Shown here piece by piece: positions 16,282 to 41,608 of a stretch of DNA of 64,000 bases. The notes beneath the pieces were generated by a model. The model saw only the letters and a list, made by a program, of their open reading frames with translations. It was not told the origin of the DNA and searched no databases. This DNA comes from Sphaerisporangium album (GTDB lineage Bacteria; Actinomycetota; Actinomycetes; Streptosporangiales; Streptosporangiaceae): the NCBI RefSeq assembly GCF_003323745.1, contig NZ_QOIL01000014.1, positions 124,001 to 188,000 on the forward strand. Direction: 5' to 3'. The translations under genes were made by a program, and so were the position numbers. Within the stretch, counting starts at the first letter, position 1; every line of letters starts with the position of its first letter.

Positions 16282-17268
16282 GTGCGCATCGCCGTCACCG
16301 GCTCCATCGCGACCGACCATCTGATGACGTTCCCGGGCAGCTTCGGCGAACAGCTCATCGCCGAGCAGCTCGACCGCGTCTCACTGTCCTTCCTCGTCGA
16401 CGATCTGCAGATCCGGCGTGGCGGTGCGGCGGCCAACATCGCGTTCGGCATGGGCTGCCTGGGCCAGAAGCCGATCCTGGTGGGCGCGGTGGGCGACGAC
16501 TTCGCCGACTACCGCTCCTGGCTGGAGCGCCACGGCGTCGACTGCCACTCGGTGCACGTCTCCGAGACGCGCCACACGGCCCGGTTCCTGTGCACCACCG
16601 ACGAGCACCACAACCAGATCGCGTCCTTCTACACCGGCGCGATGGCCGAGGCGCGCGAGATCGAGCTCAAGCCCGTCGCCGACCGCGTGGACGGCCTCGA
16701 CCTGGTGCTGATCAGCCCGAACGACCCCGACGCGATGTTCCGGCACACCGAGGAGTGCCGCCGGCGCGGCATCCCCTTCGGGGCCGACCCCTCCCAGCAG
16801 CTCGCCCGCATGGGCGGCGACGAGATCAAGTCGCTGATCGAGGGCGCGGCCTACCTCTTCACCAACGACTACGAGAAGGCCCTGGTCGAGCAGAAGACCG
16901 GCTGGTCGGACGAAGAGGTGCTGGACCGGGTCGGCGTACGGGTCACCACCCTCGGCCCGAAGGGCGCGCGCATCGACCGCAAGGGCGAGCCGTCCATCCA
17001 CGTCCCCCCGGCCCCCGAGCAGGGCAAGGTCGACCCGACCGGCGTCGGCGACGCCTTCCGCGCGGGCTTCCTGTCGGCCCTCGCCTGGGGCGTGTCGCCG
17101 GAGCGCTGCGGCCAGGTGGGCAACCTCGTCGCCACCCACGTGCTCGAAGAGGTCGGCGGCCAGGAGTACAAGCTCGGCAAGCAGGGCTTCCTGGACCGCT
17201 TCTCGGCGTCCTACGGCACCGAGGCCGCCGCCGAGATCGCCCCGCACCTGAACTGCCACTACGCCTGA
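16282..17268 (+). CDS. adoK: PfkB-family carbohydrate/nucleoside kinase, probable adenosine kinase
   Basis: The 328-residue ribokinase-fold enzyme starts IAVTGSIATDHLMTFPG. It carries the glycine pair RRGGAAANIAFGMGCLG and the catalytic anion hole DPTGVGDAFRAGFL. The sequence resembles, from memory, M. tuberculosis Rv2202c, the unusual bacterial adenosine kinase also called cbhK, along most of its length. The reaction would be ATP-dependent phosphorylation of adenosine (or a sugar). A GAGGAG site lies upstream of GTG 16282. It converges on tusA across a strongly structured intergenic region. Confidence 0.88.
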   Translation: MRIAVTGSIATDHLMTFPGSFGEQLIAEQLDRVSLSFLVDDLQIRRGGAAANIAFGMGCLGQKPILVGAVGDDFADYRSWLERHGVDCHSVHVSETRHTARFLCTTDEHHNQIASFYTGAMAEAREIELKPVADRVDGLDLVLISPNDPDAMFRHTEECRRRGIPFGADPSQQLARMGGDEIKSLIEGAAYLFTNDYEKALVEQKTGWSDEEVLDRVGVRVTTLGPKGARIDRKGEPSIHVPPAPEQGKVDPTGVGDAFRAGFLSALAWGVSPERCGQVGNLVATHVLEEVGGQEYKLGKQGFLDRFSASYGTEAAAEIAPHLNCHYA

Positions 17269-17273
17269 CCTTT

Positions 17274-17412
17274 GCCTATGGCCTCGCTCCGCTCGGCGTG
17301 TCCGGGCGCGCCCCGAACGGGCCTATGGCCGCGCCTCAGGAACTGGAGTTCGGGGCGGCTTGGAGGTGGCCCGGTCGCCTCGAACACGCCGCCCCGGAGA
17401 CGCGGCCATAGG
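17274..17412. repeat. nested inverted repeats between convergent genes
   Basis: CCTATGGCCGCG (17322-17333) pairs perfectly with CGCGGCCATAGG (17401-17412). Inside it CGGGGCGGC (17351-17359) pairs with GCCGCCCCG (17388-17396). A further copy of GCCTATGGCC lies at 17274-17283, forming a direct repeat with 17321-17330. The element fills the gap between the kinase and tusA ends. It could act as a bidirectional terminator or as a structured repeat family. Confidence 0.6.
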
Positions 17413-17432
17413 TAGGGCCATGGGCACCGCTT

Positions 17433-17723
17433 TCAGTAGTTGCGCCGCACGTGGATGGCCCAGCCCCCCTGGGGAAGCTCGTAGCTCCCCACATGGTGGT
17501 GGGACTTCAGGCGGCACCACGCGGGGACGTCGGTGAACGCCGCGGGGTCGTCGGCGAGCACGGCGACGGTCGCGTTCATCGGCACGTCGTTGATCTGCTG
17601 CGCCAGCATGATGATCGGAATCGGGCACTTGCGCCCGAGCGCGTCGATCGTCAGCGCCGCCTCGGGCGGCGCGGCCGGCTCCTGGCGCGGAGCCTCCCCG
17701 GCGTCCCGCCGCCTGGTCGTCAC
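17433..17723 (-). CDS. tusA: TusA-family sulfurtransferase
   Basis: This 96-residue sulfur carrier has the signature GRKCPIPIIML, with the persulfide-accepting Cys in CPxP. A C-terminal extension with an aromatic/His segment (CRLKSHHHVGSYE) follows. I start it at GTG 17723 (VTTRRRDAGEAP), preceded by GGGAAGG. It lies 37 bp downstream of the cysteine desulfurase on the same strand, so the two probably form a sulfur relay. TusBCDE are not present, so 2-thiouridine synthesis by the E. coli route is not implied. Confidence 0.88.
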   Translation of the reverse strand: MTTRRRDAGEAPRQEPAAPPEAALTIDALGRKCPIPIIMLAQQINDVPMNATVAVLADDPAAFTDVPAWCRLKSHHHVGSYELPQGGWAIHVRRNY

Positions 17724-17760
17724 GACCGCGACCTTCCCCGGGCGGGCGACCCGTGGCCGC

Positions 17761-18894
17761 TCACGGGGACTCGACCCCGACGGCGGCGCGGACGCGCCGG
17801 ACGATGTCCGGGAGGACGGCAAGGAACCGGTCGACGTCCGCCTCGGACGCGTTCCAGGGCAGGGACACCCTCACGTTCCCGTGCGTGAGCACTCCCATGG
17901 CCTCCAATACGTGTGATGGTCGTAGCGTACTCGCCGTGCACGAACTGCCGGATGATACGGCGAACCCGGACCTATCCAACTCAGTAAGTATCGCCTCACC
18001 CGCCACGTAAAGGCATGAAAACGTGACGATGTGCGGCACCCGCTCGACCGGGTCGCCGACCACCTCGACGTCGGGCACCAGCCGGGGCACGGCCTCGCGT
18101 ACGCGGTCGACCAGCGCCGACAGCCGCGCGTTGTCCCGCTCGGCGTCGGCCACGCGCGCCCTCAGCGCCGCCACCGCCGCCACGATGGCCGGGACGTTCT
18201 CGAAGCCCGGCACCCGGCGCCGCTCCCGCTCGTCCTCCGGCAGCGGCGAGCGCCATCGCGTGCCCTTGCGCACCGCCAGCACCCCCACACCGGCCGGACC
18301 GCCCCACTTGTGGGCGCTGCCCGCCAGCACCGACCACCCGGGCGGGACGGGCAGCCGCCCGAGCGTCTGCGCCGCGTCCACGAGCAGTGGCACCCCGGCC
18401 GCCCGGCACGCCTCGGCCGCCCGCGCCACAGGCTGGAGCGTGCCGACCTCGTGGTTGGCCGTCTGCAGGCAGGCCAGCGCCGTGCCCTCGCGCGCCACGG
18501 CCGCCGCGAACTCCTCCGGGTCGACCCGCCCGGTCATCCCGACCCCGACGACGTCCATCTCGCCGCCCTCGCGCTCATGGACGGCCCCCGCCTGCAGCAC
18601 GCTGGAATGCTCCACGGCGCCGGCGACCATGCGGCGTCCCGCGCGGCGGCGGCCCAGAAGCGTCCCGAGCACCCCGAGGTGGATCGCCTGGGTGCCGGAG
18701 GAGGTGAAGGACACCTCGTCCGGCCGCGCGCCGATCACCTCGGCGGCCTCCTCACGCGCCCGCTCCAGCAGCATGCGCGAGCGCCGCGCCGCGCCGTACA
18801 GCCGGGCGGGGTCGGCCGCGTCGAGGGCGCCGATCAGCGCCTCACGCGCGGCGGGGTGCAGGGGTTCGGTGGAGGCCGCGTCGAAGTACGCCAC
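17761..18894 (-). CDS. cysteine desulfurase (class V aminotransferase fold)
   Basis: This PLP enzyme releases sulfur from cysteine as an enzyme-bound persulfide. Conserved parts are YFDAASTEPLHPAAREAL at the N-terminus, TSSGTQAIHLGVLG, the PLP lysine in AGSAHKWGGPAGVGVL and the mobile-loop cysteine in SSGSSCTASTL. I start it at GTG 18894 (VAYFDAAST), where close family members begin. The open frame continues to 18993, but those residues look non-coding, and no clear ribosome-binding site supports either. With tusA downstream it makes a donor-acceptor pair. Whether it serves Fe-S assembly, tRNA thiolation or cofactor synthesis is not readable. Confidence 0.9.
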   Translation of the reverse strand: MAYFDAASTEPLHPAAREALIGALDAADPARLYGAARRSRMLLERAREEAAEVIGARPDEVSFTSSGTQAIHLGVLGTLLGRRRAGRRMVAGAVEHSSVLQAGAVHEREGGEMDVVGVGMTGRVDPEEFAAAVAREGTALACLQTANHEVGTLQPVARAAEACRAAGVPLLVDAAQTLGRLPVPPGWSVLAGSAHKWGGPAGVGVLAVRKGTRWRSPLPEDERERRRVPGFENVPAIVAAVAALRARVADAERDNARLSALVDRVREAVPRLVPDVEVVGDPVERVPHIVTFSCLYVAGEAILTELDRSGFAVSSGSSCTASTLRPSHVLEAMGVLTHGNVRVSLPWNASEADVDRFLAVLPDIVRRVRAAVGVESP

Positions 18895-29594: not shown

Positions 29595-30002
29595 TCATCC
29601 GTCCGTCACCGCGAACCACACCGTCCGGCCCGCCGCATCGTCCTTCCAGCCCCAGGCCGAGGACAGCTCGCGCACGAGCCACAGCCCACGGCCCCTCTCG
29701 GCGAGCGGGTCCACCTGTGAGGGGACGACGGGCAGGGGGGTGGCCGACCCCTCGTCCGCCACGCTCACGTAGGTCAGGTCGCCCGTTGCCGTGACCTCCA
29801 CCCTGATCCGCCCGCCCTCCCGCCGTCCGGAAGCGGAGTGGCTGACGGAATTGGCCACCAGTTCGGTCACCAGGAGTTCCACTTCGTCCACGCGCGGGCA
29901 GCCGCATGGAATCAGAAGATCCCGCACGTAGGCACGCGCCGCCGAGACGGAGATCTCCGTGGCTGGGAGCTCGATGGAGCCCAGCAGGCCGGCCGTTCTC
30001 AC
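29595..30002 (-). CDS. RsbW/AbaA-like HATPase (anti-sigma-type ATP-binding protein)
   Basis: The 135-residue protein is a stand-alone GHKL ATPase domain. The N box is DEVELLVTELVANSVSHSASG; the G boxes are VADEGSATPLP and ERGRGLWLVREL. Such proteins act as anti-sigma or regulatory kinases in actinomycetes. GTG 30002 overlaps the stop of the preceding small gene (GTGA). The open frame continues to 30323 in a poor Arg/Pro/His-rich sequence, which I exclude. Together with the XRE/DUF397 pair it resembles the whiJ/abaA type of locus. Confidence 0.88.
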   Translation of the reverse strand: MRTAGLLGSIELPATEISVSAARAYVRDLLIPCGCPRVDEVELLVTELVANSVSHSASGRREGGRIRVEVTATGDLTYVSVADEGSATPLPVVPSQVDPLAERGRGLWLVRELSSAWGWKDDAAGRTVWFAVTDG

Positions 30003-30271
30003 TGCGCCGCCTCCCAGACCCGTTCGGACGCGTCGTCCGCCAGCGCCCGCACCATCTGGGCGCGGCCCCGGCCCCAGGTGAAGAACCACCTGCCGTCGCG
30101 CAGCAGCGCCATGACCTTCAGGGGAGCGGGGGTGCGGGGGATCAGCAGGGTGGGTTGCCGGCCTGTGCGCAGGTCGATCGCGGAGCTCAGTCCTCGTTTG
30201 CGCAGCTCCCATCCCAACCGCACCAGGTGAATGAGCTGCTGCCGCGAGTCCGGTAGCGTCTTGGCGCTCAT
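29999..30271 (-). CDS. small hypothetical protein coupled to the HATPase
   Basis: The 90-residue basic, soluble protein starts MSAKTLPDSRQQLIHLVRLGWELRKRGLSS. Its middle has GRQPTLLIPRTPAPLKVMAL and WFFTWGRGRAQMV. I recognise no enzyme family, though similar small proteins precede HATPase genes in other actinomycetes. It overlaps the ATPase start by four bases, which strongly suggests a joint role. It may be a partner or target of the ATPase. Confidence 0.7.
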   Translation of the reverse strand: MSAKTLPDSRQQLIHLVRLGWELRKRGLSSAIDLRTGRQPTLLIPRTPAPLKVMALLRDGRWFFTWGRGRAQMVRALADDASERVWEAAQ

Positions 30272-30526
30272 CCACGCCGCCGCGTCGTGTGCGTGGCCGC
30301 GAGGGCGTCGGGAGCGAGGGCACCCGATGTGCCGGCCTCGCCCGCTACGCCGTACACGCTCAGGATTTTGGGCGTTTGGAGCGGTTCGTTCATCTTGCCA
30401 CCTGTAAATTCGGCGAATTGGGACTACCGCCGACCTTCACATGGCAGCATGATGGGAAGTAGCGGAATCACGGCTACCCAGCTTTTGCAATCCGTGTCCA
30501 CCCGTATGTAACGCGAGGTAACCCGA

Positions 30527-31339
30527 ATGGCCGGGAACGCTGGCACCTCACGCGCCTTCTTGGGGCGAGAATTGCGACGGGCACGTGAGGCAAAAGGGAT
30601 AACTCGTGCATCGCTTGCTAAAGTATGCTACGTTAGTGAATCACTGGTGAAACTGTGGGAGACGGGGCGCCGTGTTCCTGTGCCGGACCACCTCGCCCAG
30701 ATGGATCAACTCTTCGAGATGAACGGCATACTGGTCCGGCTCCGCGAGGAGCTGGTGAAAACCGCGGTGCCCCTTGAATGGTTCGGCCGGTGGCCGGAGG
30801 TCGAGAATCGGGCTGCGTCTTTGTGGTGGTTCGAGCCGACCGTAATACCCGGTCTACTGCAGACAGAGGACTATATGCGCGCCGTCCTCCACGCCGGAAA
30901 CCACCAGGCGGACGTTGAGGAGATGGTGAGCGCACGCCTGGAGCGGCAGAAGGTCCTCGAAAAAGAAGACGACCCGCCCATGCTTGTCGCTCTCATCTCG
31001 GAGAGCGTGCTACGGCACAACGCGGGCGGCGCCAAGACCATGGTGGATCAGTTGACGAGTCTCGCTGACATGGCTGAGCGGGACAACAGTGTCATAGTGC
31101 AGATCATTCCCAACCGCGCGTTCGCATGCGCGGGGTTCATCGCGCACTTTGTCATCGCCGGTTTCGATGACGGCACGGATGTCGCGTACGTCGATAACCA
31201 GTTGAGCGGCGAAGTCGTAGAGCATGCCGAGGATCTGGTGCGGTTGAAGCGTATGTTCGATGCTTTCAGGGCGGAAGCCCTGCCCAAGCAGGAATCAATA
31301 TCATTGATTATGGAAGAGGTGGAAAGATGGAGAATCTGA
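30527..31339 (+). CDS. XRE regulator with DUF5753 (WhiJ-like)
   Basis: The 270-residue protein has an N-terminal helix-turn-helix (LGRELRRAREAKGITRASLAKVCYVSESLVKLWETGRR, residues 11-48 in pieces). A DUF5753 domain follows from about residue 85 (PTVIPGLLQTEDYMRAVL ... VIVQIIPNRAFACAGFIAHFVIAGF). These regulators pair with DUF397 proteins in morphological and antibiotic control in Streptomyces. The next gene starts within its end (13-bp overlap). A direct repeat GTAAC-N5-GTAACC lies 4 bp before the ATG (30508-30523) and may be its own operator. Confidence 0.93.
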   Translation: MAGNAGTSRAFLGRELRRAREAKGITRASLAKVCYVSESLVKLWETGRRVPVPDHLAQMDQLFEMNGILVRLREELVKTAVPLEWFGRWPEVENRAASLWWFEPTVIPGLLQTEDYMRAVLHAGNHQADVEEMVSARLERQKVLEKEDDPPMLVALISESVLRHNAGGAKTMVDQLTSLADMAERDNSVIVQIIPNRAFACAGFIAHFVIAGFDDGTDVAYVDNQLSGEVVEHAEDLVRLKRMFDAFRAEALPKQESISLIMEEVERWRI

Positions 31340-31512
31340 ATTGGCGCAAGTCCTCGTACAGCGGCTCCAATGGAGGCACCTGCATTGAGGTGGCGAAAGC
31401 CGCCGGTGGTATCGCGGTGCGAGATAGCAAGCGACCCAATGGTGGTCACTTGGAAGTACCTGTGGAAGCGTTTCGTGCGTTTCTGGTTGGTCTCAAGGAA
31501 GACGTCGTCTGA
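31327..31512 (+). CDS. DUF397 small protein
   Basis: The 61-residue protein has the family pattern NWRKSSYSGSNGGTCIEVA ... IAVRDSKRP. DUF397 proteins accompany XRE-DUF5753 regulators and are thought to modulate them. This one overlaps the regulator gene by 13 bases, so the pair is translationally coupled. Gene order and overlap are the normal arrangement. Confidence 0.93.
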   Translation: MENLNWRKSSYSGSNGGTCIEVAKAAGGIAVRDSKRPNGGHLEVPVEAFRAFLVGLKEDVV

Positions 31513-31646: not shown

Positions 31647-33317
31647 TCAGGCGTCCGGATCGCTTTCTGGGTCATCGGGTCCGGCATCCTCAGCCAGCAG
31701 GCGATTTAGTCTCGCCAAATAGGCGTCCAGTTCGGCGACGCCGGACGCGTCGGGCCCCTGATAGCCGATAATCGCCTCCCGCAGTCGTACGGCGATCGCC
31801 ACGGCACGGGTCGGCCGGTTCGCCGCCGCGTGCAGCCGCATGAGGGACGCCAGCGCGTCGAGGTGACGTTCGACGTCCTCGGTGTCATCGGGGTCCGGCC
31901 GGTAGGTGATGAAGTCCTCGTAGGCCGCGATGGCTCCGGTCACCGTGCCCAGCTCTTCCTGGCATTTCGCGAGCGAGTATCGAGCGGCCCGCGTGAACTC
32001 GTCGTCCGGCCCGTAAGCGTCGCGGTAGAAGAGCATGGCTTTTTCGAAAAGCTCGGTGGCCTCACTGAGTCCGCCACCGACGAACTTCACCTGACCGAGT
32101 GCGAAGATCAGCTCGTTGGCCAGCGTCGGGTTCACGGGCCGGGCCAGCAGGTCGGTGATGACGTCCGCGGCCTGCACGAACTGATGGTCCTCCGCCAGTC
32201 GCTGCGCGAGGCCCGTCGCCTCCTCGACCTCCTCAGGTGCCACCGGGGACGCGCCCGCAGGCCCGGAGCCTGGGGCGTTCAGGTGGGTCGCGGCGGCTTC
32301 GAGGTCTGTCGCCGGCCTCGGCCCGGTCTTCGTCCGCACAGTGCCGCCGAGCGGGCGTACGAACGGAAGACAGGGGTCGAGATGCGGGATGTCCAACGGG
32401 AAGCCCCGCAGGTCCGGCTCGGCAATGGCCCACGGCAGGAGCGCATCATAGATCTCGGCCGCGTCAGGCCGGTCTTCGGCCTGCTTCGCGAGCATGGCCA
32501 GGAGAAGTTCTTCGATCTCGGAGGGCGCGTCGGGACGCAGTCTCCGGAGCGGCGGCGGGGCGGCGTTGAGGTGGTGCCAGAGGTACGACCTGTCGCTGGT
32601 CTGCCCGAACGGCGGCTTGCCTGTGAACAGCTCGTACATCACGCACCCCAGGGCATAGGCGTCCGCGGCGGGACCCACGGCGTTCGCGATCCCCTGTTCC
32701 GGTGACATGTACGGCGGTGTGCCCACGGTCATTCCGACCTGTGTCAACCTGGTGTTCGTGCCCGAGCCGATGAGGGAGGCCACACCGAAATCCAGGACCT
32801 TGACGATGCCGCCAGGGGTCAGCATCAGGTTCTCCGGCTTGATGTCGCGGTGGACGACATCATTCAGGTGCACCTCGTGGAGCACGGAGGCGACCTGAGC
32901 CCCGATCGCGGCCACTCGCGAGACTAACAAAGGGTCGTCCGGGTCGCTTTCGTCGATGAGCGTCTTCAACTCCCGGCCGCGCACCAGCAATTGCATCACC
33001 ACGAACAACCTGCCGGTGCTCGGATCGGTGCCCCAGTCGTAGACGGCGGGAATTCCGGGATGCTCCAGCCGTGCAGTCGTGTTGACCTCCCGGAGAAAGC
33101 GTTCCCGCCGAATCTCCAGGGCTTCCAGATCGGGATGCCCCGTCACCATGGAGGACCGTTCGGCGATCATCATCTTGACGGCCACCCGCCGGTCGAACTG
33201 TTCGTCGTAGGCCTGCCAGACCTCCCCCATGCCGCCCGCGCCGATAGGAGCGCGCAGGCGGTACCGGCCTGCGATGAGGCGGCCGTTCACGCCCTCCGGC
33301 TCGGTGCCATCTCTCAT
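31647..33317 (-). CDS. cytosolic Ser/Thr protein kinase with C-terminal TPR-like region
   Basis: Hanks-type kinase: glycine loop IGAGGMGEV (25-33), ATP Lys48 (VAVKMM), catalytic loop VVHRDIKPENLML (155-167), DFG at 176-178 and TPPYMSPEQ in the activation segment. The kinase domain ends near residue 300. The rest (about 345-550) is helical, with TPR-like repeats (NELIFALGQVKFVGGGLSEA, YSLAKCQEELGTVTGAI). Unlike most actinobacterial PknB-type kinases it has no membrane helix. Its start is only 50 bp past the hsdR stop on the same strand, so it is probably part of the restriction-modification transcript. Confidence 0.92.
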   Translation of the reverse strand: MRDGTEPEGVNGRLIAGRYRLRAPIGAGGMGEVWQAYDEQFDRRVAVKMMIAERSSMVTGHPDLEALEIRRERFLREVNTTARLEHPGIPAVYDWGTDPSTGRLFVVMQLLVRGRELKTLIDESDPDDPLLVSRVAAIGAQVASVLHEVHLNDVVHRDIKPENLMLTPGGIVKVLDFGVASLIGSGTNTRLTQVGMTVGTPPYMSPEQGIANAVGPAADAYALGCVMYELFTGKPPFGQTSDRSYLWHHLNAAPPPLRRLRPDAPSEIEELLLAMLAKQAEDRPDAAEIYDALLPWAIAEPDLRGFPLDIPHLDPCLPFVRPLGGTVRTKTGPRPATDLEAAATHLNAPGSGPAGASPVAPEEVEEATGLAQRLAEDHQFVQAADVITDLLARPVNPTLANELIFALGQVKFVGGGLSEATELFEKAMLFYRDAYGPDDEFTRAARYSLAKCQEELGTVTGAIAAYEDFITYRPDPDDTEDVERHLDALASLMRLHAAANRPTRAVAIAVRLREAIIGYQGPDASGVAELDAYLARLNRLLAEDAGPDDPESDPDA

Positions 33318-33367
33318 GCCGATGTCCCTTCCAGCGATGCCGCCGACCCCCGTCCCGCTGATCGAGA

Positions 33368-36300
33368 CTAATCGGTGCGACTCTCTCTGGTCGCCCGAAT
33401 CTCGGCAAGTCGGGCAGCCGTCGCCTGGCGCTCCGCCTCCCGCCGGGCGGGCCTGCGGATCAGGTTGTACGCCTGGCGTTTCGCGACCTGCTTGAAGAGC
33501 CGGCCGATCTCTTCTTCTTCGAAGTAGCGAACGAGCAGGGCGTCATTGGAAGCGGCCTGGTCGATGAGGATCCGGTCGAAATCCTTGTCCAGCTCCCGAC
33601 CGAACGTCTCCTCGTCCTGGTTCAGGGCGATCTCGGCCAGTTCGGCGTTCTCGGTGACCGCCACAACGAGCTGGCCGAGCAGGATCTGATCGGTGGTGGA
33701 CAGGTTCGCGCCGTACTCGTCGTTGACCTCCTCGATCACCCGGGCCAGCGACTTCTCCTCAGGATCGGCGCCACCGGCTCCGGCATCGTCGGTGAAGCCC
33801 GGCAGCACCTTGGGCCCTTCCGCCTTCAACGTGAGCTCGTGGTCGCCGGTCTTTTCGATGCGCAGGTGGCTCGGCGCGATGCCTCCGACGTCCACACTCG
33901 CTTCCTGGCTGGGTGGGGGCAGCCTGTTCAGCAGGAACCGTGCGTACTGGTAGAGCCGTTCCAGCGAATCGTCGTTGTACCCGATGATCTGCGACAGAAA
34001 GCCGTAAAGACGCACGTAGTCGCGCAGCGCGCAGCGGAACTGCTCGGCCTTCTCCGGCTCTTCGGCGGCTAGGTCGTTGAAGCGGTCGATGGCCGGCTCG
34101 GTGAATCGGTAGAGCTTGGCATGCGCCTTCCGCAGAGCGGCCTCGCTCTCGGCCGCGGCGAAGTAGGCGTCGACGAACGCCTGCATCTCCGACTCGACCA
34201 GCAGCCGGAAGGCCATGACCTCCCGCTCTTTGTCGTACAGAAGGTTCGGGTCGGTCGGTTCGGTGATCGTGGTCTCGTAGAACGGCTGGAACGCCGCCAG
34301 GATGTCCTCCGCCTTGTTCGAGAAGTCCAGCACGAACAGGTCTTCCTGTGTCTTGCTGCGGTGCGTGCGGTTCAGGCGTGACAGGGTCTGCACCGCCGCC
34401 ACCCCGGCAAGGGGCTTGTCCACGTACATCGTGGTGAGCAGCGGCTGGTCGAAGCCGGTCTGGTACTTCTCCGCCGCCACCAGGATCCGGTACTCCTCCT
34501 TGCGGACGGTGTCGGCGTGCTTGTCGTCGGCCCGTGTGTAGGCGAACCGGCGCGGGAGCTCTCGTTCGGGGAATCCGTTGAGCTTCGGCTCGGTGTACTC
34601 TGGGCCGTCCTTCTCCAGCTTGAGCGTGCCGGAGAACGCCACCAGCGTGGCGCAGTCAGGGAACCCCCGCTCGTCCACGTAGGCGCGAATGGCCTGATAG
34701 AGCCGTACGGCGTCGCTGCGGTAGGGGACGACCACCATCGCCTTGGCGCGGCCACCGAGCCGCCGCGCCGTGTGGGAGCGGAAATGGTCCACGATGATCT
34801 TCGCGCGGGAGGCCATGGACGCGTCGGATCGCAGCGCGGCCCGTACCAGCTGCGACTTGGCCTTTCGCGGATCCACGAGCCGCTCCGCCTCCTCCACGGC
34901 GGCCTCGGACAGCTTGAAGTAGGTGGCGTAGGTGACGTAGTTGCGCAGCACGTCGTGGATGAATCCCTCGTCGATGGCCTGCCGCATCGAGTAGACGTGG
35001 AAGGGCTCCATCGCGCCCGTCGCCGGATGGGGCCGGCCGAACAGGTTCAGCGTCTTGGGCTTGGGGGTCGCCGTGAAGGCGAACACCGACAGGTTCGGCT
35101 GCCTGCCTCGGGCCAGTGCCGCCGACGTCAGCGGGTCACCGTTCTCATCGACCGTGCGGGAGCCGAGGGCCTTCTTCAGCGCCGCGTTGTCCTCGCCGCC
35201 CTGAGAGGAGTGCGCCTCGTCGATGATGATCGCGTACTTGCGGGTGCCCAGGCCCGTGACCTTATCGAGGACGAACTGGAACTTCTGCTGGGTCGTGATC
35301 ACGATTCGCGCAGCCTGGCCCGTCAGCGCGGCGGCGAGTTGGGCGGAGTCCTCGTCGATCCGCTCGACCACGCCCTGGACCTGCTCGAACTGATAGATCG
35401 TGTCCTGCAACTGCTTGTCCAGCACCTTGCGGTCGGTGAGCACGACCACCTTGTCGAAGACCGGCTGATTCGGGGCGACGCCCTTGCCGCGCGCCGCCTC
35501 GTCGATCAGCCCGGCGTCCTCCGGGGTGTGCAGGGACGACAGCCAGTGCGCGAGCCAGGCGATCGTGTTGGACTTTCCCGACCCCGCCGAATGCTGCACC
35601 AGGTAGTTCTCACCCGCGCCGTGCCGCGCAGCATGAGCGGTCAGAGTCTTGACCGCATGCCACTGATGGAACCTCGGGAAGATCAGTGGCTGGGTGTGTG
35701 CCGCACCCGGCTTGTAGGAAGGCGCCCGTCCCGCCTTCGCGTCGGCGTCCTCCATGTGGAGGAACCTCTGCAGCAGCTCCAGGACGTTGTCACGGTGCAG
35801 TAGTTCCTCCCACAGATACGAGGTTCTGTACTCCCTGGCGCCCGCGGGCCGGTTGCCAGCGCCCCCGGACTCCCCGGGACCGTTGGAACCCTCGTTGAAG
35901 GGCAGGAAACGTGTCCTGTCCCCGGCCAGCCGTGTCGTGAGGAACACCAGGTCCGGGTCGACCGCGAAATGCACCAGCGTGCGCTTGGCGAACAGCGGCT
36001 CTTTCGGATCACGCAGCCGGTACTGCCGCTTGGCGTCAAGCACCGTCTGCCGGGTCGCGGGATTCTTCAGCTCTGCGGTGGCGATCGGGATACCGTTCAC
36101 GAAGAACGCCAGGTCGACGGAGTTACCCGGTTCCTTCAGCGAGTAGTGCAACTGTCGGACCAAGGTCAACCGGTTCGCGCGGTATTCGTCGAGCGCATGG
36201 GCCGCGAGCGTGTGCGCGGGCCTGAAGTAGGCGAGGCGGAATTTGAGGCCCTTGTCCTTCACCCCGTGCCGCACCACGTCTAGCACGCCCCGCACGTCGA

Positions 36301-36544
36301 TCTCCCTGGCCACGAGCCTGGCGAACTGCCAGATCGGCTGCTCCACGTCTCCGTACGCCTCACGCAGCCGTTCCCACTGGTCCGCCTGCGTCGCCCCGAG
36401 GAACAGCGCCAGCTCGGCCGTGTCAATGGCGAGCTCACGGTCGTAGTCGTCGTTCACCCCAAGGGCCCACCCAACCGTAGGAGCCGTCAGCGCGGCGACC
36501 ACAGCGTCCTCGAATGCCCGCTCCGTATACACCCGCGCTTCCAT
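33368..36544 (-). CDS. hsdR: type I restriction enzyme R subunit
   Basis: HsdR cuts DNA after ATP-driven translocation. The 1058 residues show the N-terminal PD-(D/E)xK nuclease (VDLAFFVNG with Asp144, TAELK with Glu158 and Lys160). The SF2 motor follows: Walker A HSAGSGKSN (318-326), DEAH at 442-445, FAFTATPKPKT and the late motif QTLSRLNRTH. The C-terminal helical domain binds the methylase core. All catalytic residues are present, so the enzyme looks intact. Its start shares one base with the hsdS stop (TGATG). Confidence 0.96.
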   Translation of the reverse strand: MEARVYTERAFEDAVVAALTAPTVGWALGVNDDYDRELAIDTAELALFLGATQADQWERLREAYGDVEQPIWQFARLVAREIDVRGVLDVVRHGVKDKGLKFRLAYFRPAHTLAAHALDEYRANRLTLVRQLHYSLKEPGNSVDLAFFVNGIPIATAELKNPATRQTVLDAKRQYRLRDPKEPLFAKRTLVHFAVDPDLVFLTTRLAGDRTRFLPFNEGSNGPGESGGAGNRPAGAREYRTSYLWEELLHRDNVLELLQRFLHMEDADAKAGRAPSYKPGAAHTQPLIFPRFHQWHAVKTLTAHAARHGAGENYLVQHSAGSGKSNTIAWLAHWLSSLHTPEDAGLIDEAARGKGVAPNQPVFDKVVVLTDRKVLDKQLQDTIYQFEQVQGVVERIDEDSAQLAAALTGQAARIVITTQQKFQFVLDKVTGLGTRKYAIIIDEAHSSQGGEDNAALKKALGSRTVDENGDPLTSAALARGRQPNLSVFAFTATPKPKTLNLFGRPHPATGAMEPFHVYSMRQAIDEGFIHDVLRNYVTYATYFKLSEAAVEEAERLVDPRKAKSQLVRAALRSDASMASRAKIIVDHFRSHTARRLGGRAKAMVVVPYRSDAVRLYQAIRAYVDERGFPDCATLVAFSGTLKLEKDGPEYTEPKLNGFPERELPRRFAYTRADDKHADTVRKEEYRILVAAEKYQTGFDQPLLTTMYVDKPLAGVAAVQTLSRLNRTHRSKTQEDLFVLDFSNKAEDILAAFQPFYETTITEPTDPNLLYDKEREVMAFRLLVESEMQAFVDAYFAAAESEAALRKAHAKLYRFTEPAIDRFNDLAAEEPEKAEQFRCALRDYVRLYGFLSQIIGYNDDSLERLYQYARFLLNRLPPPSQEASVDVGGIAPSHLRIEKTGDHELTLKAEGPKVLPGFTDDAGAGGADPEEKSLARVIEEVNDEYGANLSTTDQILLGQLVVAVTENAELAEIALNQDEETFGRELDKDFDRILIDQAASNDALLVRYFEEEEIGRLFKQVAKRQAYNLIRRPARREAERQATAARLAEIRATRESRTD

Positions 36545-37779
36545 CAGGCCAGCCCCTCGCTCCCTCGCCCTGCCGTTGTGACATCGATCTGCCCGGTCAC
36601 CGCGCCCGTTATCAGTGCTTGTCGTCGTTCCGTTAGTAGTTGTTTCTGCTTAATTAGCAGATTGGTCAAAGAATCGATTCTATCAAGCGTGCGGCTTGTT
36701 TCTTTTACGATCCTCTTCTGAGTGGCGAGTGAAACTAGAGGGATGCGAAAGTCTCGGATTTTCCCGCTACTCGTCGACGCCAAGTTCGTTGTCTTCGTTC
36801 CTGTGCTCTCGAAGTAATTCCGGGCGTAAATCGACCTTGTCAATAACGCGAGGTAATCCGAATCCAAGCTAGCTCCGGGTCGTACTGCGAAGATGTGGTT
36901 TTGATGCAGGCATTCAGGAATTTCATCCCGCCAGACTGTGCCGCGCCCGAGTTTGTCGAGGTCGCCGCCCTCCGTCATAAGCACATCACCGAAACGTAGG
37001 GTGCTGGCGGCCGCCATCTTTTCCGAGACGGAGATCTCTGTGATGGAGTTAAGTTCCAAACGGCCTGCCTGAACGTTCGCGACGCGTATATAAGGTCGTG
37101 TCACCGCATCATCTGACAGGGTTCGTGATCCGTCCACGGTGATACCGGACTGAATTGTGGCAAGATAGCCGAGTCGGATGAATTGGCAATCTCCTGAAGT
37201 CGGCAGTACCTCGGAGATGAAAGCTGTCGAACGGTCGTTAAGTAGGTGGAGTTGGCGGTCGCGAATGGCGGCTAGCCGGTCGATGTAGATAGTTTCGACA
37301 TCGAGGAAGTTTGCGATCCAACGCTGCTCATCCAAAGACGGGGTCGGTATCTCAATGTTCCCAAGATCTTCCGGATTAATGCGAGGCGTGCGTACTGCTC
37401 CGTTGTCTGTACCTCCGATTCCGCGTAGTCGTGATGCCATCTCTCCTATGAACCATGAAGATCGAAACAGGTGATGCAGATACTGGGCATTAACATGGGG
37501 GCTAGGCTGCAAAACCAGATAGTCCGGGCTGACGAGTCCCCGAATCGGGCTGACCCCGATGGCTCCCTGGAATGCGCGCATCCGATTCAGGATGATGTCT
37601 CCAGGCTCGCAAATCTTATAGTTACTCAAATCCTCTGCCCGAGGAAGATCATCGGTGAGGGATTCGCGTGGAATGACTCCTTTGTGGATTGAAACGGCAA
37701 GCAAGGGAGGCTGATCGGATCCCGCCCGCCTGTCGATCGTCCGGGACAAGTACTTGAGCCGTCGAGTCGGCCAGATCAT
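36544..37779 (-). CDS. hsdS: type I restriction enzyme S (specificity) subunit
   Basis: The 411-residue protein carries two target-recognition domains and two conserved helical regions. TRD1 region begins IWPTRRLKYLSRTIDRR. The first conserved region contains IEIPTPSLDEQRWIANFLD, and the second DFRIPLVSLATQKRIVKE and LTERRQALITGAVTGQI. It sets the DNA sequence read by the complex. The gene is visibly richer in A+T than its neighbours, typical of frequently exchanged hsdS genes. It overlaps hsdM by ATGA. The recognition sequence cannot be predicted from sequence. Confidence 0.95.
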   Translation of the reverse strand: MIWPTRRLKYLSRTIDRRAGSDQPPLLAVSIHKGVIPRESLTDDLPRAEDLSNYKICEPGDIILNRMRAFQGAIGVSPIRGLVSPDYLVLQPSPHVNAQYLHHLFRSSWFIGEMASRLRGIGGTDNGAVRTPRINPEDLGNIEIPTPSLDEQRWIANFLDVETIYIDRLAAIRDRQLHLLNDRSTAFISEVLPTSGDCQFIRLGYLATIQSGITVDGSRTLSDDAVTRPYIRVANVQAGRLELNSITEISVSEKMAAASTLRFGDVLMTEGGDLDKLGRGTVWRDEIPECLHQNHIFAVRPGASLDSDYLALLTRSIYARNYFESTGTKTTNLASTSSGKIRDFRIPLVSLATQKRIVKETSRTLDRIDSLTNLLIKQKQLLTERRQALITGAVTGQIDVTTAGRGSEGLA

Positions 37780-39797
37780 GAGGTGACCTCGCCGAGGAGG
37801 GTCTGAATCTGCCCTTCGAGTGCCTTGAGTTCTGCGTCGATCTCCGCCAGGGGGCGTGGCGGGGTGTAGACGTAGAAGTGGCGGGTGAAGAGGATCTCGT
37901 AGCCGATTCTCGCGCGGGTGGTCGTCTTGGTCTTGGGATCTTTGATCTCAGCGATCCAGGCGTCGGGGACGTGGGGGAGTACTTCGCGTGCGAGGTACTC
38001 GTCTATGTCCTCGTCGAGGGGGACGTTCTCGTAGTCGCGTAGGTCCGGGTCGGGCTCGGGTTTGCCCTTGAGTTTCTGGATCTCGCCGCCGGGGTCGGGG
38101 ACACCAAGCGCGTTCCAGATGGCCTTGTCGACCGAAGATCCCGCCGGCCACATTGTCCCGGCGGTGACGACCGCATGGAGGGTCGCGTTGCGGGCTTCGG
38201 CCTTGGTCCACCAGACCGTGCCGAGGAGGGGTTTCAGTGCGTCGACGAACGCCTCATGACCAGCGATCTTGGCGAGGGGCTTGGCCTCGCGGAGGGCGGC
38301 AAGGGTCTCCTCGGTGATCTCGAAGCGGAGCCTGAGCGGCCGGTCGACGGTGATGCGCTGGTAGCCGAAGTCCTCGTTGCGGAACACTTTGACGCTGCCA
38401 TGCGACGGATGGGACTCGTCCTCGGCGATCTGCAGGGCGTCCCGGTAGAGCCCGCACACGTGCTTCACCTGCTCCGGCGAGATCTCCTTGCGCTTCTCGC
38501 CGAGGGACTTGCGCATCTTCCGCCACTGGTCGCGGGCGTCGAGCAAGATGACCTTGCCCTTGTGGCGGCTGTCCTTGCGGTTGGTGACGATCCAGAAGTA
38601 CGTGGAGATCCCGGTGTTGTAGAAGAGCTGGTCCGGAAGGGCGACGATCGCCTCAAGGTAGTCGTTCTCCAGGATCCACCGGCGGATCTCCGACTCGCCC
38701 GATCCCGCGCCGCCGGTGAACAGCGGCGAGCCGTTGAAGACGATCGCGATGCGGGAGCCGCCCTCCGACACGGGCCGCATCTTGGCCATCATGTGCTGGA
38801 GGAACAGGAACGAGCCGTCGTTGATGCGCGGCAGGCCGGCGCCGAACCGGCCGGCGTGGCCACGATCCTCATGCTCGTCGCGTACGGCCTTCTCCACCTT
38901 CTTCCATTCCACCCCGAAGGGCGGGTTGGCGAGCATGTACGCGAAGGTGCGGCGGTTGCCGTTCTCGTCACGGTCGTGCCCGTCCTGGCTGAAGGAGTTG
39001 CCGAAGACGATGTGCGACGGGTCCTGCCCCTTGAGGAGCAGGTCAGATCGGCAGATGGCGTAGGACTCGGCGTTGACCTCCTGGCCGTAGAGGTTCACGC
39101 GGGTCCTCGGGTTCAACCGGCGGATGTGCTCCTCAGCGGCCGAGAGCATTCCGCCCGTCCCGCACGCCGGGTCGAGAATGTCGATGACCTGCCCAGGACC
39201 GGTCAGCACCGCGTCGTCGGGGGCGAGCAGCAGCTCGACCATCAACTCGATGACCTCGCGCGGGGTGAAGTGCTCACCCGCGGTCTCGTTGGAGATTTCC
39301 GAGAACCTCCGGATCAGCTCCTCGAAGGCGTAGCCCATCTGGTGGTTGTCGACGGCCTGAGGGCTGAGGTTGATCCTGGGGTCGGCGAACTTCTGGATCA
39401 CCTGGTAGAGCAGCCCCGCCGTGTCGAGCCGGTCGATCTGGATATGGAACTCGTAGCGGTTGATGATCTCGGTGGCCTCGGAGGAGAACCCGTTGATGTA
39501 GTCGCGCAGGTTCCTGGCGACGTTCGCCGGGTCCGCTCCGATCGTCGCGAAGCTCTGCGAGGAGGTGTTGTAGTAGCGCAGGCCTGCGGCCACCTTTAGG
39601 AGGGAGTCGCGCTTCTGCCCGGTGTAGGAGGCGGCGCGGGCCCATACCGCCTGACGGGTCGGCTCCATGACGCAGTCGAGTCGGCGCAGCACGGTCATCG
39701 GCAGGATGACCTTGCCGTATTCGGACTGCTTGTAGTCTCCGCGCAGCAGGTCGGCCACCGACCAGATGAACCCGGCCAGTTCCTGGTGCTTACTCAC
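37776..39797 (-). CDS. hsdM: type I restriction-modification N6-adenine methylase M subunit
   Basis: The 673-residue methylase has the helical N-terminal domain (HQELAGFIWSVADLLRGDYKQSEYGKVILP, in parts). The SAM site DPACGTGGM is at 209-217 and the catalytic NPPFGVEW starts at residue 291. The C-terminus binds HsdS. It methylates adenine at the site chosen by HsdS and protects host DNA. Motifs are all intact. It overlaps both neighbours by four bases (ATGA), giving strict coupling in the operon. Confidence 0.96.
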   Translation of the reverse strand: MSKHQELAGFIWSVADLLRGDYKQSEYGKVILPMTVLRRLDCVMEPTRQAVWARAASYTGQKRDSLLKVAAGLRYYNTSSQSFATIGADPANVARNLRDYINGFSSEATEIINRYEFHIQIDRLDTAGLLYQVIQKFADPRINLSPQAVDNHQMGYAFEELIRRFSEISNETAGEHFTPREVIELMVELLLAPDDAVLTGPGQVIDILDPACGTGGMLSAAEEHIRRLNPRTRVNLYGQEVNAESYAICRSDLLLKGQDPSHIVFGNSFSQDGHDRDENGNRRTFAYMLANPPFGVEWKKVEKAVRDEHEDRGHAGRFGAGLPRINDGSFLFLQHMMAKMRPVSEGGSRIAIVFNGSPLFTGGAGSGESEIRRWILENDYLEAIVALPDQLFYNTGISTYFWIVTNRKDSRHKGKVILLDARDQWRKMRKSLGEKRKEISPEQVKHVCGLYRDALQIAEDESHPSHGSVKVFRNEDFGYQRITVDRPLRLRFEITEETLAALREAKPLAKIAGHEAFVDALKPLLGTVWWTKAEARNATLHAVVTAGTMWPAGSSVDKAIWNALGVPDPGGEIQKLKGKPEPDPDLRDYENVPLDEDIDEYLAREVLPHVPDAWIAEIKDPKTKTTTRARIGYEILFTRHFYVYTPPRPLAEIDAELKALEGQIQTLLGEVTS

Positions 39798-41491
39798 TCG
39801 TCGCCCTCTCGCTTGTCATCGCCGTGCTTCGTACCTGTGCGGCGGGATGGTGGTGGATCCAACGCGCCGCTGGTCAGTCCTTCGTGTGCCAGCCGCGCGG
39901 CGTGTCTGCCCATCTTGGCGGCCTCGTCGAGATCACGGGTGAAACTCTCGAGTTCCCGGAACACCGCTCCGTACCGCCGCTGCCGCTCGATGTCCATCTG
40001 GGGCACCGACGCGCCGCGCAGGTCGGCTCTGTACGTGCCCGTCGCGGAGGTGTTCCGCCGTCTGTGGGTGACGCCGCGCAGGAAACCCTTGAGGTAGTCG
40101 GTGTCGAGGAGTTCGGTGCGCGAGGTGACGTCATCCCCCTCGGCGCTCACCAGGTTGTTCTTGATCAACTCGCTCACGTTCAACGTCGAGGTGAGCTCCT
40201 GGCTGGTGGAAACCGGGAGTTCCGGCAGCGCCCGGACCAGTTCCCGCAGCCGTTCCTCTAGCCGGGCCCGCGCCGTGGCGTACGCCGTCACGTAGTCCGG
40301 CTGGGAAGCGGCCACGTACCGGGTGGGGGAGAGGTCCACCTCGTCGCCGAGCAGCGTGATCATCGAAACCTCGGCGACCTGCTCGGAAGCGGGCTCGATC
40401 TTCCCCCCCGCCTCCGGATCGAGGTCGGTCAGGTCGATCATGCGTACCGGGACATCGCCGATCACGGGGGTTTCCGGGCGGCGCAGCACCCACAGATGTA
40501 CGGGCAGGGCGTGGCCGGGGACCAGTCCCGCGGGTAGGGCGACCATCGTGTCGAGGATGCCCTTGCGCACGAGTTCCGCCCTGATGCGCTTTCCCGACCT
40601 GCGATAGGCCACGGACGCGGGCAGGACGAGCACCGCGCGACCGCCTGGCGCGGTGTGGAAGTAGCAGTGCTGCAGCCAGGCCAGCTCGCTCTCCGCCCGG
40701 GGTGGCACCGCCAGTTCCCAGCGGCGGTCCACCAGCAGGGCGTCACGGCCCCAGTCCGTCTGCGCGGCGGGCGGGTCACAGACCACCAGGTCAGCTCTGA
40801 GCTCAGGAAATCGGTCGTAACGAAGGGAATCGCCCGTCGCGGTGGTGAACGCACGGGACCGCGGGCCGAGTGACGACCGGAGTTCGGCGAAGCGGGCGAC
40901 AGCGGGGCGCTGGTCCTGGCCCATTCGCCAAGCGACTCGCGGGCCGCCGCACGACAGCAGCAGGTCGCCGATGCCGCATGCGGGGTCGTAGACGGTGCCC
41001 GAGGTGTCGCCTGCGAAATGCCGTACGAGCCGCACGAGGCCCGGCGTGGAGACGTGCTCGCCACCGGCCCTGCCGGACGAGGCGACCAAGCGAGCGGAAA
41101 GATCCTCCAGCAACCCGTGAGGAGTGCGCTCGTCCGCCATCTGCCGTGCCAGTTCGACCGTTGAAGGAGACAGGGGCCGCGTGGCGGGCCCGCCCTCGCC
41201 GACCAGGAACTCCTCGCCGAGGGCGACCAGCGCCCCGATCATGTCGTCGCCGCATTCGGTTCTCAGTGCCTGCCAAAGGCGTACCTCGTCGGAGACGGCC
41301 TGCCCTTTGCCCTGCCGGTCCAGCCATCGCCGTACCTCGACGACAGAGAACAGCGGGTTCGTGGCCGTGCCCCCGGACGGCTCCGGGAAGTCGGCATGCC
41401 GGCGGCGCCAGTTCGAGACGGCCGCACGAGACACCCCCGCCAGCCTCGCTATCTCGACGGGCGCCACTAGCGCCACCTCTTCGCCGCTCAT
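39794..41491 (-). CDS. HTH-containing N6-DNA-methylase-like protein, first gene of the RM operon
   Basis: The 565-residue protein starts with a helix-turn-helix (VEIARLAGVSRAAVSNWRRR, residues 12-31) and a wing-like FPEPSGGTATNPLFSVVEVRRWL. An HsdM-type methylase fold follows: SAM motif YDPACGIGDLLL at 168-179, then motif IV as CDPPAAQTDWG at 238-248. The aromatic residue normally after (N/D)PP is Ala here. The C-terminal part may interact with other subunits. It may be a regulator built on a methylase, a second methylase, or both. A palindrome 43 bp upstream of its ATG is a candidate binding site. ATGA overlap with hsdM. Confidence 0.85.
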   Translation of the reverse strand: MSGEEVALVAPVEIARLAGVSRAAVSNWRRRHADFPEPSGGTATNPLFSVVEVRRWLDRQGKGQAVSDEVRLWQALRTECGDDMIGALVALGEEFLVGEGGPATRPLSPSTVELARQMADERTPHGLLEDLSARLVASSGRAGGEHVSTPGLVRLVRHFAGDTSGTVYDPACGIGDLLLSCGGPRVAWRMGQDQRPAVARFAELRSSLGPRSRAFTTATGDSLRYDRFPELRADLVVCDPPAAQTDWGRDALLVDRRWELAVPPRAESELAWLQHCYFHTAPGGRAVLVLPASVAYRRSGKRIRAELVRKGILDTMVALPAGLVPGHALPVHLWVLRRPETPVIGDVPVRMIDLTDLDPEAGGKIEPASEQVAEVSMITLLGDEVDLSPTRYVAASQPDYVTAYATARARLEERLRELVRALPELPVSTSQELTSTLNVSELIKNNLVSAEGDDVTSRTELLDTDYLKGFLRGVTHRRRNTSATGTYRADLRGASVPQMDIERQRRYGAVFRELESFTRDLDEAAKMGRHAARLAHEGLTSGALDPPPSRRTGTKHGDDKREGDE

Positions 41492-41533
41492 GCCAGCAGC
41501 GTACGCCTGTGTGCACAGCGGTGCAACGTTTTC

Positions 41534-41550
41534 AGCGTGTTGACCACGCT
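41534..41550. promoter_or_regulatory. perfect palindrome in the promoter region of the RM operon
   Basis: AGCGTG-N5-CACGCT lies 43 bp upstream of the HTH-methylase start. A second palindrome, TGTGCACA, is at 41510-41517. The 117-bp gap after the AsnC-type gene is the only space for the operon promoter. Autoregulation by the HTH domain of the first gene is inferred. Confidence 0.45.
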
Positions 41551-41608
41551 AACAGCATGAGCGCAGCCGAAGCCCGTCCTCGGAGATCCGTCCGGTGCCC
41601 CGGGGGCC

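Follow-up and report, generated by a model that had tools for sequence, protein, structure and literature searches.

Organization of the five-gene locus

We analysed a 64,000-nucleotide stretch of the Sphaerisporangium album genome (contig NZ_QOIL01000014.1, positions 124,001 to 188,000; hereafter the window), in which five adjoining genes, all open and all on the minus strand, join a type I restriction-modification (R-M) system to a helix-turn-helix (HTH) methylase, termed HTHM, and a Ser/Thr kinase. HTHM (39794–41491, 565 aa) comprises an HTH, an HsdM-like N6-methyltransferase domain, a remnant of a target recognition domain (TRD) and a long C-terminal helix. It is followed by hsdM (37776–39797, 673 aa, GTG start), hsdS (36544–37779, 411 aa), hsdR (33368–36544, 1058 aa) and the kinase gene KIN (31647–33317, 556 aa), whose product is a Hanks-type kinase with C-terminal TPR-like helical repeats. 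The operon layout given in a preliminary description of this DNA was borne out: HTHM/hsdM and hsdM/hsdS overlap by 4 bp each (39794–39797 and 37776–37779) and hsdS/hsdR by 1 bp (36544), and the kinase lies 50 bp past hsdR (33318–33367) with no terminator-like site in the gap; an 11-kb scan gave five such sites, with 5.6 expected by chance. The G+C content is 0.58–0.68 between 30 and 41 kb and 0.70–0.74 in the adjoining windows (2-kb windows).

Pfam assigned N6_Mtase to both HTHM and HsdM, HsdM_N to HsdM, two Methylase_S stretches to HsdS, HSDR_N and SWI2_SNF2 to HsdR, and Pkinase to the kinase. HsdM has the two-domain build of a type I M subunit and carries the motifs DPACGTGG (209) and NPPF (291), the two Methylase_S stretches correspond to the TRDs of type I R-M, and HsdR shows the nuclease and SF2 motor of a type I enzyme (ELKN at 158, GSGKS at 321, DEAH at 442). 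PADLOC recognized HsdM (MTase_I, 871 bits), and matches to the NCBIfam models TIGR00497 for HsdM (92.5 of 242.75 bits) and TIGR00348 for HsdR (176.9 of 284.55 bits) fell below the cut-offs. The motifs are also maintained in the gene clusters of homologous loci, window included: GSGK[ST] and DEAH occur in 83/83 HsdR proteins and E[LV]KN in 82/83, and NPPF occurs in 85/86 HsdM proteins and DPACGTGG in 84/86 (these two sets, like the set of 67 hsd-linked HTHMs, include two duplicate records). HsdS varies between loci, mostly at 25–52% identity to the window protein. As judged from its sequence, the window encodes a complete type I R-M system (HsdM, HsdS and HsdR) with intact motifs.

Recurrence of the five-gene unit

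An hsdM-anchored search from a 6-sequence alignment confirmed 569 loci, and the best 80, which are the closest hsdM relatives and not a random draw, were compared. All 80 are actinobacterial. HTHM lies upstream of hsdM in 77, hsdR was found in 78, a same-strand kinase lies downstream in 63, and both HTHM and the kinase are present in 62; for the kinase count, ten loci were set aside as cut off (less than 4.6 kb after hsdR, or no hsdR). One locus has a kinase upstream, and none of the 80 has a downstream kinase on the opposite strand. The gap between hsdR and the kinase is at most 300 bp in 40 of the 63 loci, 300–1500 bp in five and more than 1500 bp in 18. The genome of S. album itself encodes 46 kinases above the Pfam cut-off in 9.3 Mb, approximately one per 200 kb; therefore, a same-strand kinase directly downstream would rarely be expected by chance. 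Across 51 loci, the pairwise distances computed for HTHM, HsdM, HsdR and KIN are correlated with one another (Spearman 0.81–0.90, to which host phylogeny contributes), and the largest values in 200 permutations were 0.16–0.26. Two loci deserve separate mention: L153 contains an extra hsdM-like gene (16392–18218) within the unit, between hsdR and the kinase, and L083 has hsdM, hsdS, hsdR and the kinase with no HTHM detected, its called hsdM frame being longer (765 aa).

As controls, 20 lower-scoring hsdM loci were hand-picked, 7 of them intermediate and 13 distant; an hsdR match is present in 12 of the 20. None of the 20 has HTHM directly upstream (such HTHM matches as occur there fall on hsdM itself), and none has a kinase directly after the hsd genes. 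Control L221 carries a separate same-strand HTHM-kinase pair about 1.7 kb past the hsdR match, its kinase about 3.5 kb past, and under the looser rule applied to the 80 loci it would count, which gives 1/20 for the controls. Control L212, on contig C3 of the same genome as the window, is a second, related type I system without HTHM or kinase.

The search was also run from HTHM in 297 genomes of the family, 248 of which gave a match at E up to 0.001; among the matches listed, 32 places score above 430 bits (window included), one scores 374, and the others score at most 292. The 31 other high-scoring places and the next two were fetched as 33 regions (L038–L070). Three of them (L040, L042 and L043) hold the full five-gene set in order, L039 and L041 hold HTHM-hsdM-hsdS, L039 also with hsdR, and in the rest HTHM stands with other neighbours. 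An hsdM search of 150 genomes from the order gave scores of at least 760 bits at 31 places (window included), 298–615 at eight, and at most 160 at the rest; the 20 controls were taken from the places below the high group. The preliminary description had named recurrence of the five-gene order as a check and held that its reading would be undermined if most homologous hsdRMS loci lacked the kinase and HTHM; within the close hsdM subfamily the opposite was found, and the 20 more distant loci are without the arrangement.

HTHM, a single-chain methylase degenerate in the window

The HTH motif is present in 101/104 aligned HTHMs. Pfam HTH models match it below cut-off, and it appears as a helical pair in the AlphaFold2 model of the window protein (predicted local distance difference test (pLDDT) 88.8, predicted template modelling score (pTM) 0.79). 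A Foldseek search of this model against the PDB placed type I M subunits closest, with PacII M1M2S chains first. Two forms of HTHM can be distinguished. The long form consists of the HTH, the HsdM-like domain and a C-terminal half-HsdS homologue, the last revealed when profiles of 33 long HTHMs and of 52 HsdS proteins were compared (probability 98%, E 2.5e-13 and 6.8e-14); plain Pfam reports no Methylase_S in this part. The short form, to which the window protein belongs, is without most of the HsdS-like part, and its C-terminus matches the long form (99.1%) and hardly HsdS (7–15%). By this domain composition, HTHM descends from a methylase that joined an HTH, an HsdM-like domain and a half-HsdS in a single chain.

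The loss of the motif IV aromatic residue abolishes adenine methylation in N6-methylases. In the window HTHM, motif IV reads DPPA with the aromatic lost, and the TRD core is deleted in its clade; the HTH is kept. Motif I is retained as DPACGIG, so that cofactor binding may survive. Among 63 distinct hsd-linked HTHMs with an HTH motif, motif IV is NPPY/F in 28, xPPY/F in 19 and degenerate in 16, and it is degenerate in 12 of the 13 that are under 600 aa. These counts leave out duplicates (L039 = L080, L042 = L081) as well as proteins that lack the HTH motif, namely L095 (apparently in the wrong frame), L122 (masked) and L104|3 (cut off).

In the HTHM tree, the window protein falls in a 35-tip clade (support 0.99) with members from 9 hsd-linked, 10 kinase-helicase, 7 DISARM-like and 9 other loci. 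The grouping of HTHM with proteins of the kinase-helicase and DISARM-like loci, and of the kinase with hsd-linked kinases, suggests that HTHM has been exchanged between systems. There is little to support an origin from mobile elements: six plasmid records hold an HTHM relative at E 1e-30, all predicted to be non-mobilizable, viral contigs gave a single 53-residue match, and phage records hold 15 HsdM relatives, all below 60% identity.

A conserved putative operator upstream of HTHM

The region before HTHM contains the 19-bp site GTTAGCGTGGTCAACACGC (41535–41553, minus strand), which holds the 15-bp dyad GTTAGC-N3-GTCAAC and stands 8 nt upstream of a likely promoter identified by eye (41498–41526, minus strand; −35 TTGCAC at 41526–41521, a 17-nt spacer and −10 TACGCT at 41503–41498). 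The −10 element ends 6 nt before the HTHM ATG, so the transcript is probably leaderless. Homologous HTHM genes of the TRAA class described below have a similar spacing of −10 and ATG, with GTGTACNGT-like boxes just before the ATG. The operator pattern, drawn from the window and its near relatives, has one exact match in the 9.3-Mb genome; with two mismatches it has 49 further places versus 30 for the reversed control pattern (among the matches listed). Five of 400 background starts match 13 or 14 of its 14 bases, and these may be neighbours on a shared intergenic region.

For motif discovery, HTHM upstream regions were grouped by the residues of the HTH into the classes TRAT (36), TRAA (32) and GRAA (28). 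The results revealed three related dyads: TGAAAGC-N3-GTCAAAC, TGTTNRC-N3-GYCAACA and GTGAAC-N3-GTCAAC. In-sample, 35/36 TRAT, 32/32 TRAA and 20/28 GRAA regions reached the 99th percentile set by 1000 control starts, and the held-out figures against 800 control starts were 33/36, 31/32 and 14/28. The TRAT and TRAA matrices hardly cross-match (0/36 and 1/32), and GRAA and TRAA do so in part (17/32 and 9/28). The window HTH is a variant of its own, SRAA, which belongs to no class and to no training set. Scored with the TRAA matrix, its putative operator reached 21.7, where 1000 control starts had their 99th percentile at 13.1; the other two matrices gave 3.8 and 8.0, and no other place in the 64-kb window reached 21.7 with the TRAA matrix; the score from a matrix trained without the window slightly strengthens the case for the operator. 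The 72 strong matches within the loci comprise 62 at the 5′ end of HTHM, two at the start of a kinase-helicase gene and eight elsewhere, and in several loci with a divergent kinase-helicase fusion a second dyad is present at the opposite end of the intergenic region. At 27 starts of stand-alone HTHM genes, the motif that the search found sits within the coding sequence, at a constant distance from the start; dyads such as GTGAACGCCGTACAC were seen at L163 and L169.

Two other roles for the site were considered and set aside. A target of HsdS is not expected to be common to loci whose HsdS proteins differ as much as these do, and a target of HTHM's own TRD does not fit the window clade, in which the TRD core is deleted and the site remains. 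The predicted binding of HTHM to DNA is well supported.

The kinase and its association with HTHM

An alignment of kinases shows the catalytic residues unchanged in 32/32. The kinases are also conserved in their C-terminal part, which forms helical repeats in the structural model (pLDDT 84.1), with Pfam TPR hits below cut-off, and a fold search with the model returned the kinase domains of mycobacterial PknB and PknA first. We built a midpoint-rooted tree of 132 kinase domains, 67 of them hsd-linked (including one duplicate). One 98-tip clade (support 0.94) comprises all 67 hsd-linked kinases, 13 of the 14 adjacent to HTHM, 12/12 kinases divergent from HTHM and six others from HTHM loci, and none of 25 background kinases of this genome falls inside it. 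The window kinase lies in an 18-tip clade of hsd-linked kinases alone (support 1.0), and 11 of the 12 divergent kinases come from loci of the kinase-helicase cluster described below. A kinase also lies directly downstream of 8 of 20 HTHM paralogues sampled from the upper part of the list below 300 bits. Because kinases of the same clade adjoin HTHM without hsd genes, HTHM rather than hsd appears to be the constant partner of the kinase. Two-gene HTHM-kinase pairs without adjoining hsd genes were observed at L072, L074–L076, L159, L165, L166, L168, L173, L174, L176 and L177.

Comparison with known systems

Like other type I R-M systems, the window set has HsdM, HsdS and HsdR; unlike the 20 other hsdM loci of the same family, it is bracketed by HTHM and a kinase. 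A close parallel for HTHM is M.SsoII: according to PMC6100179, a palindrome of 15 bp is bound by its N-terminal domain, with repression of its own gene and stimulation of the gene for the nuclease. An N-terminal DNA-binding domain on a methylase and a palindrome at its own promoter, as in M.SsoII/Ecl18kI, are both predicted for HTHM from the sequence and the structural model. M.SsoII is a C5-methyltransferase of a type II system, whereas HTHM is of the HsdM-like N6 type (N6_Mtase, type I M-subunit fold), is degenerate in the window, and precedes a separate type I system and a kinase. By analogy, M.SsoII is a working precedent for HTHM as a putative autoregulator. RptR, as far as the accessible text of PMC12255303 describes it, is a small homodimeric regulator that binds TAGCTA and is conserved across Gammaproteobacteria. 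It resembles HTHM as a dedicated DNA-binding regulator with a conserved site before type I genes; it differs in the TAGCTA site, in its host group and in that no kinase figures in that description.

Other systems that pair methylases with kinases were compared by profile. MADS (methylation-associated defense system), a published system that the preliminary description did not bring up, also has a methyltransferase, an S subunit and a kinase, and its NCBIfam models match the window HsdM, HsdS and kinase; it was ruled out by scores far under the cut-offs (MAD6 140/460, MAD2 52/720 and MAD5 28/400 bits), and the window unit differs from it in having a complete HsdR. BREX type 2/Pgl likewise combines a kinase and an adenine methylase in actinobacteria, and it was ruled out because the PglW model scored 46.8 of 990 bits and the window kinase is of a small TPR-like type. 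In a scan of the five window genes, no match to PglX, PglY or PglZ was found, and DISARM was set aside as none of these five matched DrmA, DrmB or DrmD. The single-gene PD-T4-6 kinase system was considered and set aside on profile scores. A full-text search, with subscription literature mostly outside its reach, found no title describing an HTHM-hsdM-hsdS-hsdR-kinase unit; the part of PMC13388538 that is available lists hsd genes and kinases only in separate contexts, and that of PMC12839542 does not mention HsdR.

Related loci and neighbouring genes

In L044, L050, L052, L056, L060–L064, L068 and L069, HTHM is divergent from a large fusion of a Ser/Thr kinase and a DEAD/DEAH-type helicase. 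This cluster of 11 measures 1256–1689 aa as called, several members being cut by the end of the locus, and its domains were read from one member, L044. The fusion beside HTHM is a candidate defence system of its own. In L047, L048, L049, L051, L053, L054 and L057, the neighbours of HTHM include genes for a DrmD-like helicase, a PglX-like methylase and McrB-like proteins, though individual loci lack some of them; these names rest on a scan of L048, with all scores below the NCBIfam cut-offs.

In the window, the system is adjoined at 30527–31512 and 29595–30323 by genes that we take to be XRE/DUF5753-like, short DUF397-like and ATP-binding anti-sigma-like. Of the 62 related loci in which both hsdR and the kinase were called, 12 have XRE-cluster genes between the two. 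The divergent neighbour upstream of HTHM in L078–L157, named from one scanned member per cluster, is DUF6119/TIGR04141 in 16/62, DndB-like (below cut-off) in 8/62 and SMC/AAA in 7/62. Some loci have AIPR and UvrD-like genes inside the unit or following it.

Discussion

We propose, with a probability of roughly 0.6, that the locus is a type I R-M operon controlled by the methylase-derived regulator HTHM and its partner kinase. According to this model, hsdM, hsdS and hsdR would be transcribed as one unit from the promoter before HTHM. HTHM, a former single-chain adenine methylase, would act as a sequence-specific transcription factor, its HTH binding the palindrome just upstream of the promoter and thereby governing how strongly the entire operon is expressed, in the way M.SsoII works in a type II system. 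The terminal kinase would be the dedicated partner of HTHM; most likely a cue reaches it at the TPR-like C-terminus, and its most likely substrate is HTHM or an Hsd subunit, so that restriction would follow the state of infection or growth. The regulated defence system imagined in the preliminary description gains substance here, in that HTHM looks like a regulator with a conserved putative operator of its own in homologous loci. The same description had counted a kinase found in unrelated contexts as a point against it; this point holds in part, as kinases of the same clade are also found next to HTHM where hsd genes are absent. It is possible, although we hold it only tentatively, that HTHM and the kinase form a transferable control cassette of actinobacteria that has been combined with different defence effectors, in which phage or stress signals would switch restriction on via phosphorylation. 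Just as tentatively, those effectors might be type I R-M here and the kinase-helicase fusion divergent from HTHM elsewhere.

A number of observations weigh against the proposed control. The scan for consensus promoters did not list the proposed HTHM promoter, which fell below its threshold, and the operator is weak in the GRAA class, with only half of the held-out regions passing. Single control starts equalled real sites (maxima 32.0, 25.7 and 24.8 in-sample, up to 25.1 held-out), and the training and test loci are related. Motif discovery at HsdM and HsdR starts reached an information content of 23.6 and 22.5 versus 25.1, which we attribute to overlapping coding DNA. In HTHM-kinase pairs without hsd genes, the motif search gave no clear operator site. 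Seven of the 80 loci have no kinase despite enough sequence following, and in 18 of 63 the kinase starts more than 1.5 kb past hsdR. Finally, the NPPY/F and xPPY/F forms of motif IV imply that some hsd-linked HTHMs may still methylate.

The seven loci without a kinase, together with the 24 of 62 loci in which other called genes separate hsdR and the kinase, would also suit a kinase that, like known defence kinases, is an independent, infection-activated effector of abortive type in the same operon, the R-M system working alone and HTHM only regulating expression. PADLOC's best kinase hits are PD-T4-6 models, but the hit is weak, as these models probably match many Hanks kinases, and the clade of the hsd-linked kinases also takes in kinases paired with HTHM at loci that have no hsd genes, an indication that HTHM is the partner. 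We consider an independent effector unlikely.

The PacII chains and other type I M subunits that head the Foldseek matches, as well as the 4-bp overlap of HTHM and hsdM in the window, raise the question of whether HTHM is a second M subunit, forming a mixed M1M2S methylase with HsdM and HsdS to which the HTH adds a DNA contact. Long HTHMs, however, bring an HsdS-like TRD of their own, and HTHM is found without hsd genes beside kinases, the helicase fusion or DISARM-like genes, the window protein itself grouping with such hsd-free HTHMs in the 35-tip clade. The three of 80 loci without HTHM, moreover, keep NPPF in hsdM. A mixed methylase therefore seems improbable to us. An HTHM that is an active methylase, adding a second modification tuned by the kinase, would accord with NPPY/F in 28 and xPPY/F in 19 of the 63 distinct hsd-linked proteins and with the TRD of the long form; with DPPA as motif IV and the TRD core deleted in the window clade, we give this very little credence. 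Chance clustering within a defence island, to which the low G+C content and the defence-type genes inserted in related loci might point, is contradicted by the recurrence of the unit, whose order and strand are fixed in most of the 80 loci and absent from the 20 controls and whose distances are correlated, and it can practically be dismissed.

Type I restriction is usually thought to be constitutive, with control exerted after translation, and RptR is one exception. The proposed control of the operon by HTHM and its kinase suggests that restriction of this kind is under signal control rather than always on. With a unit that recurs and comes with an apparent operator and a dedicated kinase, the control of restriction by signals can be put to a direct test in laboratory actinomycetes. 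HTHM is apparently a DNA methylase that has taken on the role of a transcription factor, and stages in between are still found among its relatives. The HTHM-kinase pair may serve as a marker for finding further defence systems in a group of bacteria whose restriction is also a practical barrier to cloning.

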